From NCBI GenBank assembly GCA_029777935.1, contig JAKORH010000101.1:1-10112 (forward strand): 10,112 nt of DNA, in the 5' to 3' direction. Source of the stretch: Pseudomonadota bacterium. Its GTDB lineage: Bacteria > Pseudomonadota > Gammaproteobacteria > Burkholderiales > Burkholderiaceae. The notes beneath the pieces are model-generated. The model made no database searches. It worked only from the letters and a program-made list of their open reading frames with translations, and was not told the origin of the DNA. Positions 6,191 to 10,112 of the stretch are shown here, in pieces; position 1 is the stretch's first letter; each line of letters begins with the position of its first letter. Position numbers and translations under genes: made by a program.

Positions 6191-6793
6191 ATGTGCGGCC
6201 GCTACGACCTGTCGGACAACCCGGCCGCGATCAAGGCCAGGTTCTCGGTGCCGCGCGTGCCCGACTACGCGCCGAACATCGACGTGCGGCCCACGCAGGT
6301 CAATCCCATCGTGCGGCTCGACCGCGAAGGCGGCCGTGAATGCGCGCTGGCGCGCTGGGGACTGGTGCCGGTGTGGGCGAAGGACCTCAAATTCGGCACC
6401 CGCTGCATCAACGCGCGCTCCGAGACGATCGCCAGCGCGCCGGCGTTTCGCGCCGCGTACCGCAAGCGGCGCTGTCTCGTTCCCGTCAACGCCTTCTACG
6501 AGTGGAGCGGCCCGACCGGCCACAGGATCAAATGGCGGATCGGACTGCGCGACGAACCGCTGTTCGCGCTCGCCGGCCTGTGGGAGTGGTGGCGCGATCC
6601 GCAGTCCGACGAAGGCGTCGAAACCTACACGATCATCACGACCGATGCGAACGCGGCCTTGGCATCGATCCACGACCGCATGCCGGTGATCGTCGCGCCG
6701 CAGAACTACGCCGCTTGGCTCGATCCGGGCGAGTCGCCGGAGCCATTGCTCGCGCCGTTCGACGCCGGCGCGCTGAAGTTGGAGCGCGGCTGA
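6191..6793 (+). CDS. SRAP-family abasic-site processing protein (YedK/HMCES-like)
   Basis: A 200-residue member of the SOS-response-associated peptidase family. In E. coli YedK and human HMCES the free N-terminal Cys2 forms a stable thiazolidine crosslink with abasic sites in single-stranded DNA, protecting them at replication forks. The signature residues are present: Cys2 (MCGRYDL), Asn74 (CINARSET), Glu104 (FYEW) and His161 (SIHDRMPVIV). Cys2 must directly follow Met, which fixes the start at 6191. No strong ribosome binding site is visible; the coiled-coil gene ends 2 nt before, so coupling is likely. The protein stops at LKLERG, about 20 residues shorter than E. coli YedK (222), and lacks the C-terminal VN..RN/KNxGxELI-type segment. 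I see no LexA-like box upstream. Confidence 0.95.
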   Translation: MCGRYDLSDNPAAIKARFSVPRVPDYAPNIDVRPTQVNPIVRLDREGGRECALARWGLVPVWAKDLKFGTRCINARSETIASAPAFRAAYRKRRCLVPVNAFYEWSGPTGHRIKWRIGLRDEPLFALAGLWEWWRDPQSDEGVETYTIITTDANAALASIHDRMPVIVAPQNYAAWLDPGESPEPLLAPFDAGALKLERG

Positions 6794-6996: not shown

Positions 6997-9900
6997 ATGA
7001 CCGATCTGTCCGAGATCAAGAAGCTCGCCAAGTATCGCCCCGCGCACAAGGTCCGCTTCGTCACCGCGGCGTCACTGTTCGACGGCCATGACGCCAGCAT
7101 CAACATCATGCGGCGCATCCTGCAGAGCATGGGCGCGGAGGTGATTCACCTCGGCCACAACCGATCGGTGGAGGAGATCGTCATCGCCGCGCTGCACGAG
7201 GACGTGCAGGGCATCGCGGTCAGTTCCTACCAGGGCGGGCACGTCGAGTTCTTCAAGTACATGCTCGATCTGCTGCGCAGCCGCGGCGGCGCGCACATCA
7301 AGGTGTTCGGCGGCGGCGGCGGAGTGATCGTGCCGGCCGAGATCAAGGAGCTGCACGACTACGGCGTGGCCCGCATCTTCTCGCCCGAAGACGGGCAGAA
7401 GATGGGCCTGACCGGAATGATCGGCATGATGCTGGCGATGTGCGACGAGGACCTGTCGCCGCTGGCGCCGAAGAAGTTGGACGCGCTGCGCGACAAGGAC
7501 GTCTACAAGCGCTGGCGCGCGCTGGCGCAACTGGTCACCGCGCTGGAAAACGACAAGGCGCCCGACGACGTGTGCTACGAGCTGCACAAGGCCGCCGACA
7601 CCGCGCGCGCGCCGGTGGTCGGCATCACCGGCACCGGCGGCGCCGGCAAGAGTTCGCTGACCGACGAGCTGATCCGCCGCTTCCGCCTCGACCAGGACGA
7701 TAACCTGTCGCTCGCGGTGATCTCGATCGACCCGTCGCGCCGCAAGACCGGCGGCGCGCTTCTCGGCGACCGCATCCGCATGAACGCGATTGGGCCCTGG
7801 CAGAAGGGCCCGCGTGTGTACATGCGCTCGCTCGCCACGCGCGAGGCCGGCACCGAGGTGTCGCAGGCGCTGCCCGACGTGATCGCCGCCTGCAAGGTGG
7901 CGGGGTTCGACCTGATCCTGGTCGAGACCTCCGGCATCGGCCAGGGCGACGCCGCGATCGTGCCGCATGCAGACGCGACGCTGTACGTGATGACGCCGGA
8001 GTACGGCGCCGCGAGCCAGCTCGAGAAGATCGACATGCTCGACTTCGCCGACTTCGTCGCCATCAACAAGTTCGACCGCAAGGGCGCGCTCGACGCGCTG
8101 CGCGACGTGAGCAAGCAGGTGCAGCGGAACAGGAGCGCGTTCGACCGGTCGCCCGACGACCTGCCGGTGTTCGGAACGATGGCGGCGCGCTTCAACGACG
8201 ACGGCGTGACCTCGCTGTACCACGCGCTGCTGGCGAAGCTCAAGGAACTGGGGCTGAAGGCCGGCACGTCGAAGCTGCCGCACGTCTTCACGCGCCATTC
8301 GACCAACCAGACGCCGGTCGTGCCGCCGGCGCGCGTGCGGTATCTGGCGGAAATCGCCGATACCGTGCGCGGCTACAAGAAGCGCGCGGTCGAACAGGCG
8401 CGCGTCGCACGCGAGCGACAGCAGTTGCTCGAGACGAAGCGCATGCTCGCCGAAATCCCCCCCTGCCCCCCTTTGCAAAAGGGGGGTGACCAGCCCCCTT
8501 TCGAAAAGGGGGACGGCGACGCAGTCGCCGGGGGGATTTCGGCCCTCGACCAGCTCGTCTCCGACCGCGAAGCCAGGCTCGACTCGCGCAGCAGGAGGCT
8601 GCTCGAAATGTGGCCGCAGATGCAGCAATCCTATGCCGGCGACGAGTACGTGGTCAGGATCCGCGACAAGGAGATCCGCACCAAGCTCACGCACACCACG
8701 CTCTCCGGCAACAAGATCCGCAAGGTCGTGCTGCCGCGCTACGAGGATCACGGCGAGCTGCTGAAGTGGCTGCTGCTGGAGAACGTCCCCGGCAGCTTCC
8801 CGTACACCGCGGGCGTGTTCGCGTTCAAGCGCACGGGTACGGGTAACGACAGTGAAGACCCGACGCGCATGTTCGCCGGCGAGGGCGATCCGTTCCGCAC
8901 CAACCGGCGCTTCAAGCTGCTCAGTGAAGGCATGCCGGCCAAGCGGCTGTCGACCGCGTTCGACAGCGTGACGCTGTACGGCAACGAGCCCGATCCGCGG
9001 CCGGACATCTACGGCAAGGTCGGCAACAGCGGCGTTTCCATCGCCACGCTCGACGACATGAAGGTGCTGTACGGCGGCTTCGACCTGACCGCGCCGAACA
9101 CCAGCGTCAGCATGACGATCAACGGCCCGGCGCCGACGATCCTCGCGATGTTCATGAACACCGCGGTCGACCAGAACCTCGACAAGTTCCGTGCCGACAA
9201 CGGCCGCGAACCGACCGACGACGAGGCGCAGAAGATCCGTGCCTGGGTGCTGGAGAACGTGCGCGGCACCGTGCAGGCCGACATCCTGAAGGAAGACCAG
9301 GGCCAGAACACCTGCATCTTCTCGACCGAGTTCTCGCTCAAGGTGATGGGCGACATCCAGGAGTACTTCGTCCATCACAACGTGCGCAACTTCTACTCGG
9401 TCAGCATCTCCGGCTACCACATTGCCGAAGCGGGCGCGAACCCGATCAGCCAGCTCGCGTTCACGCTCAGCAACGGCTTCACGTTCGTCGAGGCGTACCT
9501 GGCGCGCGGCATGCATGTCGACGACTTCGCGCCCAACCTGTCGTTCTTCTTCAGCAACGGGATGGACCCCGAGTACACGGTGATGGGCCGCGTGGCGCGC
9601 CGCGTCTGGGCGGTGGCGATGCGCGACCGGTACGGCGCCAACGAGAGGTCGCAGAAGCTGAAGTACCACTGCCAGACCAGCGGTCGGTCGCTGCACGCGC
9701 AGGAGATCCAGTTCAACGACATCCGCACCACGCTGCAGGCGCTGATCGCCACCTACGACAACGCCAACAGCCTGCACACCAACGCGTACGACGAGGCGAT
9801 CACCACGCCGACCGAGGAAAGCGTGCGGCGCGCGCTGGCGATCCAGCTCATCATCAACCGCGAGTGGGGGCTGGCGAAGAACGAGAACCCCAACCAAGGC

Positions 9901-10112
9901 AGCTTCGTCATCGAGGAGCTGACCGACTTGGTCGAGGAAGCGGTTTTGCGCGAGTTCGAGTCGATCAGCGAACGCGGCGGCGTGCTCGGCGCGATGGAGC
10001 TCGGCTACCAGCGCGGCAAGATCCAGGAAGAGTCACTGCACTACGAGCACCTGAAGCACACCGGCGAGTACCCGATCATCGGCGTCAACACCTTCCGCAA
10101 CCCGCACGGCGA
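6997..10112 (+). CDS. icmF: Fused isobutyryl-CoA mutase (B12-dependent), 3' partial
   Basis: IcmF interconverts isobutyryl-CoA and n-butyryl-CoA with adenosylcobalamin and carries its own G-protein chaperone. The frame is open to the window end (1,038 codons; family about 1,090, so I estimate some 80 residues are missing). Residues 1-150 are the B12-binding domain with [10 protein letters not shown] (His31 the cobalt ligand). Residues 205-450 are the MeaB-like GTPase: Walker A GTGGAGKS (212-219), [14 protein letters not shown] (357-360). The mutase domain follows from about residue 530, with [15 protein letters not shown], then [14 protein letters not shown], and [14 protein letters not shown] (His808). 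Phe626 in MFAGEG is where methylmalonyl-CoA mutase has Tyr, supporting IcmF over MCM. The start has GGAG (6987-6990) 6 nt upstream. Residues 485-516 are encoded by an inserted repeat-like element. This gene is unrelated to tssM, which shares the name IcmF. Confidence 0.97.
8449..8543 (+). repeat. Cloverleaf-forming palindromic element translated in frame within icmF
   Basis: A 95-bp element bounded by a perfect 14-bp inverted repeat, GCCGAAATCCCCCC (8449-8462) and GGGGGGATTTCGGC (8530-8543). Inside are three perfect hairpins, each with a 3-nt loop: C6T3/A3G6 (8466-8474 with 8478-8486, loop GCA), C5T3/A3G5 (8494-8501 with 8505-8512, loop CGA) and GGCGAC/GTCGCC (8515-8520 with 8524-8529, loop GCA). 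It reads as Ala485-Ala516 of IcmF, a Pro/Gly/Lys/Asp-rich stretch ([19 protein letters not shown]) unlike the rest of the protein, in the linker between GTPase and mutase domains. The homopolymer runs and nested palindromes look like a REP/MITE-type dispersed repeat rather than evolved coding sequence. Copies elsewhere in the genome cannot be checked here. Confidence 0.8.

Follow-up and report, generated by a model that had tools for sequence, protein, structure and literature searches.

How a 95-bp palindromic element came to lie, in frame, inside a metabolic gene is the question raised by the 10,112-bp stretch of DNA analysed here (the window). The host gene, at 6997..10110 of the forward strand and cut by the end of the window, is icmF, which encodes a fused isobutyryl-CoA mutase/GTPase and was identified from Pfam and a PDB match to the IcmF entry 4xc6. 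The element occupies 8449..8543 on the same strand, and its assignment to a palindromic family, designated A, is based on its fold and on 11 distinct full-length copies of one plan, the window's included. We consider it likely that this segment belongs to a dispersed repeat family found mostly between genes, that it entered the icmF linker through a spreading process started at hairpins, and that it was kept under selection as a neutral loop. The frames upstream of icmF, between 2 and 6793, presumably encode, judging by eye, TssM- and TagF-like type VI secretion genes, caspase-like and rhodanese-like proteins and, at 6191-6793, what we take to be a SRAP-like protein.

The element folds as a unit. 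Its closing stem joins a 5′ arm at 8449..8462 (GCCGAAATCCCCCC; the family-wide end reads (G)AAATCCCCCC) to a 3′ arm at 8530..8543 (GGGGGGATTTCGGC), found both in the RNA fold and by stem search, and it is perfect over 14 bp. Between the arms, the RNA fold places three hairpins on the forward strand: hairpin 1 at 8465..8487 (10 bp, loop GCA), hairpin 2 at 8494..8512 (8 bp, loop CGA) and hairpin 3 at 8515..8529 (6 bp, loop GCA). In the RNA minimum-energy fold, the closing stem and these three hairpins with 3-nt loops pair 28 + 20 + 16 + 12 = 76 of the 95 bases, in agreement with the earlier note, which had described a 14-bp stem, three triloop hairpins and about 80% pairing. Among stems with 40-99 nt between their arms, the element's is the longest in the 10,112-bp window, followed by one of 11 bp at 6342-6440. 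When the folding energy of 8439-8553 was set against 200 dinucleotide shuffles, the RNA z-score was -5.4 and the DNA z-score -6.5, and none of the shuffles folded as well. Three Rfam matches at 8300-8700, all to microRNA models and far under their gathering scores, were taken as chance, and blastn of the element against plasmid and phage collections gave no match.

The icmF frame is open from the ATG at 6997 through the element to the end of the window, with 8449 as the first base of codon 485, so the element encodes residues 485-516. Five of its six reading frames are free of stops, which makes survival inside genes likelier. In the window protein, Pfam places a B12-binding domain at residues 20-124, MeaB at 176-412 and MM_CoA_mutase at 582-1035. 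The insert thus falls in the gap from 412 to 582 that separates MeaB from the mutase match, and an open frame adding about 32 residues between two domains, as had been claimed, is what we find. The stretch of the C. metallidurans IcmF (4xc6) that aligns to the insert is shorter. The 2023 IcmF structure paper, in the portion available to us, handles the linker and the substrate-binding domain jointly as residues 443-1093 (PMC10481361). The window protein was also modelled with AlphaFold2, at a mean pLDDT of 57 that is too low to support a fold search. The model has helices at 444-486 and 506-527, with residues 490-508 below 50, which hints that the insert region may be compatible with a loop.

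If the element is a mobile repeat, further copies are expected, and these were counted in relatives rather than in the window's own genome. G001 is the genome that contains the nearest of the fetched loci, and BLAST of the element found two copies there (E = 3.7e-14 and 4.2e-10) and none in 13 other genomes. Over 67 genomes of G001's family, the element matched in three: G024 (17 matches), G001 (two) and G054 (a single 36-nt match). A search for the core pattern CCCCTTT-N(0-10)-AAAGGGG gave 156 hits in G024 and four in G001, with 0 for a reversed-pattern control; in a 14-genome set, it was found four times in G001, once in G002 and not in the other 12. The 11 full-length copies follow the plan AAATCCCCC-hairpin-hairpin-hairpin-GGGGGATTT, with the first or last base missing in some. 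The element thus has terminal inverted repeats, with 14-bp arms in the window copy and the common ends AAATCCCCC/GGGGGATTT across the family. Hairpin 3 is variable in sequence among the 11 copies, yet it retains 6-8 bp of pairing in 10. By eye, no target-site duplication was recognised at A copies or at the nuoG site described below. These copies leave almost no room for the alternative that a Pro/Gly-rich linker drifted through low-complexity sequence and became palindromic by chance. Although linkers vary in general, drift is contradicted by the same plan outside genes, by the G001 match at E = 3.7e-14 and by a 14-bp stem with three hairpins that 0 of 200 shuffles could equal in folding, and we reject it as vanishingly improbable.

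Family A is not mainly genic but mostly intergenic. In a 796,529-bp sample of G024 (all of contig C1 and the first 80 kb of C2), 50 hairpins form 30 clusters, 28 of which lie outside convincing ORFs, defined by codon composition on both sides of the cluster, that is, by a composition test and not a gene caller. The two clusters inside such ORFs are in icmF and in a 981-aa frame. Copies of the Rickettsia element RPE-1 lie mainly inside genes, and the earlier note had likened the element to Rickettsia palindromic elements that settle in protein genes; with convincing ORFs around only 2 of the 30 clusters sampled, the distribution of A is not gene-centred. Outside the cluster sample, nuoG is a second gene with A in frame, in both G001 and G024, at a site that reads as a short VTPLENxxVNGPWIC without A in G005, G045, G046 and G047. 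Orthologous coding copies differ in length, at 87 vs 105 nt in icmF (18 nt apart) and 96 vs 99 nt in nuoG (3 nt apart). Both differences are multiples of three, so the reading frame is kept in both genes.

The icmF linker itself has received more than one kind of palindrome. The window's insert peptide is absent from all 80 homologous loci first fetched, and the closest of these, L001 (90% identity), has a different palindrome, B, in frame at the linker instead. By our reading, B appears to be a CGTC/dRS3-like palindrome: the L001 insert ends in GGGTATGACG, the reverse complement of CGTCATACCC, and the CGTC tag is present. Linkers could be read in 10 family genomes and carry A in one (G024), B in one (G001) and a third type, C, in two (G050 and G054); the other six are plain (G005, G045, G047, G051, G078 and G079), and the G052 linker, which the search expression did not catch, is outside the 10. 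The C type in G050 and G054 reads CCTCACCC... with a C(T/G)C-CCGC...GCGGGAGAG hairpin. Both types are multi-copy. G001 has 18 matches to the B-type pattern, the icmF site included, with 0 and 1 in the controls, a pattern that is noisy elsewhere (8 and 7 in G024 vs 4 and 4 in the control), and G054 has 12 C-type matches, its icmF copy included, with 0 in the control.

A protein search was scored on the mutase domain alone and was therefore blind to the linker. Among the 120 nearest IcmF proteins it listed, 115 had readable linkers, and 16 of these carry repeat-like peptides (A in 2, B in 10, C in 4), a count in which the repeat family of proteins without DNA is judged from the peptide alone, and from which P0164 and two eroded-looking linkers, judged by eye, are excluded. 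The same insert as in the window is present in G024, P0001 and P0139. The existence of homologues across genera with the same residues had been named as what would overturn the palindrome reading; the residues are absent from the 80 loci first fetched but present in these three, which bears that objection out in part. The claim of a palindromic repeat in frame in the linker between the G domain and mutase of a fused isobutyryl-CoA mutase is upheld by that absence and by the many copies of the repeat in G024. A fourth type, D, occurs as a peptide in P0033, P0102 and P0108, and as DNA only beside a DUF559 gene in G045. The idea that B peptides represent three reading frames was dropped, as the translation of the single B insert for which DNA is available did not bear it out. 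Across 157 aligned IcmF proteins, we counted 87 insertions that are 8 residues or longer, 75 at residues 484-519, 11 at 271-272 and one at 165, a tally in which one protein can count repeatedly and which includes matches from a ranking favouring long linkers. The icmF linker is a recurrent landing site for palindromes. Separately, residue ~271 (window numbering), in the GTPase domain, is a second insertion site, with 9-29 residues (PRLPAGPPQGQSAPSGG...) in 11 of the 157 proteins, for example P0074, P0142 and P0160. Longer icmF linkers were also seen at L055 and L051.

Whether the window's copy arrived by insertion or as part of an existing linker allele is evenly balanced in our judgment. The second reading holds that the insert was inherited or exchanged, with a short recombination tract replacing the linker of a gene like that of G001 by one like that of G024. 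In 50-codon bins, the DNA identity of the window icmF to G001 is 0.91-0.94 over codons 101-450 and 0.93-0.98 over codons 551-800; in bins 451-550, which hold the insert, it falls to 0.71-0.72, with 0.85-0.86 to G024, a drop that is in part trivial since G001 has an unrelated insert there. A tree built without the linker makes the window sister to L001 (SH-aLRT 98), and the A-bearing P0001, P0139 and L106 fall in another clade (99). With the gene outside the linker nearer to G001 and the A insert common with G024, the copy may stem from allelic exchange and not from a fresh insertion. Against this, from codon 801 on the identities to G024 and to G001 are similar in some stretches (0.91/0.91, 0.89/0.87), and exchange leaves unexplained both the first arrival of palindromes in the linker and the different families in close relatives. 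Such a mosaic would result either from linker exchange over a short tract or from A inserting there a second time. The tree has 80 rows (41 repeat and 39 plain), with labels set by hand, 14 doubtful rows dropped and most plain rows left out. Parsimony on it gives 28 state changes as recorded (A 4, B 14, C 9, D 2), with 19 of 77 inner branches open; as most plain rows are omitted, branches are open and gain is indistinguishable from loss, we used the tree only for the window/L001 split.

A candidate for the enzyme that moves these palindromes comes from the neighbourhood of the copies outside icmF. In G001, the strongest match to the window element (C76:135544-135636) is only 25 bp away from a match to the DUF559 nuclease profile, PF04480 (C76:135199-135519). 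In 11 family genomes, this profile gave 10 strong matches and one weak one, in six genomes, and six of the matches are stand-alone genes. When their flanks are read by eye, each of the six has palindromes of a single family in inverted orientation on its two sides. The family is A at G001 C76 and at the G024 gene on C1, C at the G024 gene on C6 and in G079, a CCCTCCCCC type in G050 and D (CCCCTCCCCTT) in G045. A is inverted on both sides of the DUF559 gene in G024 C1 (L245) and in G001 C76 (L242), the latter with an imperfect left hairpin.

We then asked how general this arrangement is in a class-wide sample, an even draw of 369 genomes of which 112 have a DUF559 match; the 30 loci assayed are the best-scoring ones, one per genome, and were not selected for repeats. 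The test looks on each side of the DUF559 match for a perfect stem with a loop of 3-12, lying no more than 230 bp beyond the match or 20 bp into it. The random control lies mostly in coding DNA, so a gene-matched control, the flanks of 263 short genes, was added; 156 of these genes come from the hairpin-rich contig G024 C1, whose own DUF559 gene was not purged. Stems of at least 9 bp were found on both sides at 17 of the 30 class-wide loci and 5 of the 6 family loci, a score of hairpins and not of one same family on either side. The controls gave 2 among 348 random positions and 3 among the 263 ordinary short genes. At 8 bp, the both-side counts are 20/30 vs 7/348 and 12/263, and with a 9-bp stem on at least one side they are 25/30 vs 31/348 and 42/263. 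The gene-matched control leaves the DUF559 contrast unchanged.

The 13 class-wide loci that fail the both-side test at 9 bp are of several kinds. Eight (L254, L256, L257, L258, L259, L262, L265 and L277) have 8 bp on one side only, and neither flank of L273 or L276 has a stem longer than 6, with L273 cut at a contig end and maybe misplaced, as an earlier test gave it 10 bp on both sides. L278 passes once 8 bp is allowed, but its stems are AT-rich and in this differ from the C-rich families. The sole family locus failing at 9 bp is L242, which has a mismatch in its left stem (6 bp). The final test uses match coordinates and all 36 loci and replaces two earlier ones: an inverted-flank score that flagged 17 of 33 DUF559 loci, with estimated gene bounds and 3 of 36 loci dropped, and a first hairpin test, in which estimated bounds cut hairpins and the same number of loci was dropped, that passed 15 of 27 class-wide loci and 2 of 6 from the family, against 3 of 246. 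At the level of genomes, at least one C hairpin (CCCTCTCCC...GGGAGAGGG) is present in 60 of 78 genomes with a strong DUF559 match (E up to 1e-15) and in 57 of 291 others, an odds ratio of 13.7 that is uncorrected for kinship or genome size. Palindromes of the A, C and D types bracket DUF559 genes. Among the 36 loci, no DUF559 gene was bracketed by B, and DUF559 therefore does not explain B at the icmF linker.

The nuclease domain is also found inside host enzymes. The other four strong family matches lie in frame in metG, in G001 (L246), G024 (L247), G050 (L244) and G054 (L243). The order tRNA-synt_1g, DUF559, tRNA_bind was found in the three that were scanned, and in L243 by reading only. DUF559 thus precedes the C-terminal tRNA-binding domain, flanked by PSPASAGEG-like, repeat-like peptides that are eroded in places. 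Without DUF559, the metG linker measures 36-58 residues in G045, G046, G055, G078 and G079; that of G053 reads short inside a longer match, and the two metG matches of G051 overlap and leave no room. For metG, there was a partial match in G005 and none in G047 and G052. Among the 120 nearest MetG proteins, 50 of whose linkers were unreadable by the search expression, P0289 and P0311 have DUF559 in precomputed Pfam annotation, and P0280 has a C-like peptide alone. Two further hosts were named by eye: a putative DNA methylase with DUF559 and repeat-like peptides in frame (L269, G215), and a restriction-subunit-like frame with both at its end (L271, G210). A metG with an in-frame nuclease domain resembles the unspliced counterpart of an intein-borne homing gene. 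In G052, contig C141 carries TCCCCGCGCGTGCGGGGA six times at a regular 61-bp spacing (48-370), perhaps a CRISPR array.

These palindromes share features with several known systems. Like Rickettsia palindromic elements, A has a stable palindromic fold over the whole element and lies in frame in unrelated protein genes (icmF, nuoG) that have empty orthologues; unlike them, it is mostly outside ORFs (28 of 30 G024 clusters) and in another lineage. REPs of the GTAG/CGTC type are, in the passages of Di Nocera et al. (2013, PMC3733652) available to us, short palindromes that are mostly intergenic with some in genes, and A matches that description. The same passages describe different REPs at about one site in recB of two Xanthomonas species and suggest that linkers and loops are tolerant, which the icmF site parallels. 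One B unit in L001, in our own reading, gives CGTCAT, a palindrome and CCA on the other strand, like CGTC REPs. Unlike the cases of Di Nocera et al., three palindrome families (by DNA) occur at one icmF linker, and A, C and D are found around DUF559, a family not named in the text of PMC3733652. Enterobacterial RU small mobile sequences, as far as the abstract goes (Delihas 2007, PMC2759123), are MITE-like repeats with open frames found in genes. A is likewise an intragenic repeat with open frames and, with its terminal inverted repeats, is MITE-like, but it has other hosts, and that abstract gives RU sequences no nuclease association. An in-frame palindrome or REP is therefore a known kind. 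The earlier note had presented a Rickettsia-like element in another lineage, and its in-frame palindrome stands, but the kind is already in print outside Rickettsia, to judge from the available parts of PMC3733652 and PMC2759123. In the literature searched, with most subscription journals outside it, we found neither a repeat in the IcmF linker nor an association of DUF559 with repeats.

The closest formal parallel is with REPtrons and TIRtrons, in which, according to the available text of PMC3733652, a RAYT or TIRYT gene is flanked by REPs or TIRs. Here too a gene is bounded by palindromic or inverted repeats with solo copies dispersed, but the enzyme is DUF559 (PF04480, Vsr-like) and not a tyrosine HUH transposase. 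The palindromes could still be mobilised by tyrosine transposases of the RAYT/IS200 type, the route which that text ascribes to GTAG REPs, and A and GTAG REPs are both short palindromes of similar build. We think this unlikely, since A ends in GAAATC...GATTTC, neither with GTAG; indeed, neither a GTAG nor a CGTC tag is present in A, the window copy ending GCCGAAATCC...GGATTTCGGC and the family AAATCCCCC/GGGGGATTT. VsrA of Caulobacter, which has a DUF559 domain and is proposed to be a mismatch-repair endonuclease (PMC12907096, in part), belongs to the same family as the bracketed nuclease, but the passages on VsrA that we could consult draw no link to repeats.

We hypothesize that A entered icmF at the linker between the G domain and the mutase, a site that would tolerate extra residues. 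The palindromes would spread by a copy process starting at hairpins or cruciforms; A, C and D would probably be cut by the DUF559 (Vsr-like) nuclease, and recombination repair would complete the process by copying the palindrome to new places with or without the nuclease gene. Solo palindromes would be the non-autonomous form and the repeat-DUF559-repeat unit the autonomous one. Copies that break the frame or the fold would be removed by selection, leaving coding copies to persist in flexible linkers (IcmF, NuoG, MetG), where the inserted peptide would be a neutral loop and not a regulator. From sequence comparison, DUF559 is a tentative candidate for the mover of A, C and D palindromes, with B not covered. 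The wider proposal, which we find possible and hold with less than even confidence, is that DUF559 (Vsr-like) proteins may mobilise elements bounded by palindromes that would form a large and so far unrecognised class in proteobacteria, with solo A, C and D palindromes as non-autonomous members. Both forms may enter housekeeping genes in frame and unspliced, either as new peptides in linkers (IcmF, NuoG) or, in MetG and a DNA methylase, as an entire nuclease domain.

It comes close to an even chance, in our estimate, that DUF559 is a passenger, with the palindromes serving as its landing sites, as for homing nucleases in their own targets, or as safe intergenic ground, and spreading by another enzyme or by replication slippage. 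C hairpins in 57 of the 291 genomes that lack a strong DUF559 match, 17 CTCTCCCGC hairpins in G078, which has no DUF559 match, and the P0280 metG, with its C-like peptide and without DUF559, are what a passenger would leave. What speaks for a mover is that all six stand-alone family genes have, by reading, same-family inverted repeats on both sides, an arrangement resembling the ends of an element, and that, in the 11 family genomes searched for both, A matches in BLAST fall in G024 (17), G001 (2) and G054 (one, 36 nt), and A-bracketed DUF559 genes in G024 and G001.

Bacterial genomes commonly contain short palindromic repeats. Several families of such repeats, CGTC REPs among them, are without a known mover according to Di Nocera et al. 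(2013, PMC3733652), and DUF559, bracketed by several other repeat families, is a concrete and testable candidate mover. The linker of a B12 enzyme, in which the repeats differ among relatives, is a natural experiment in how selfish DNA turns into protein sequence.
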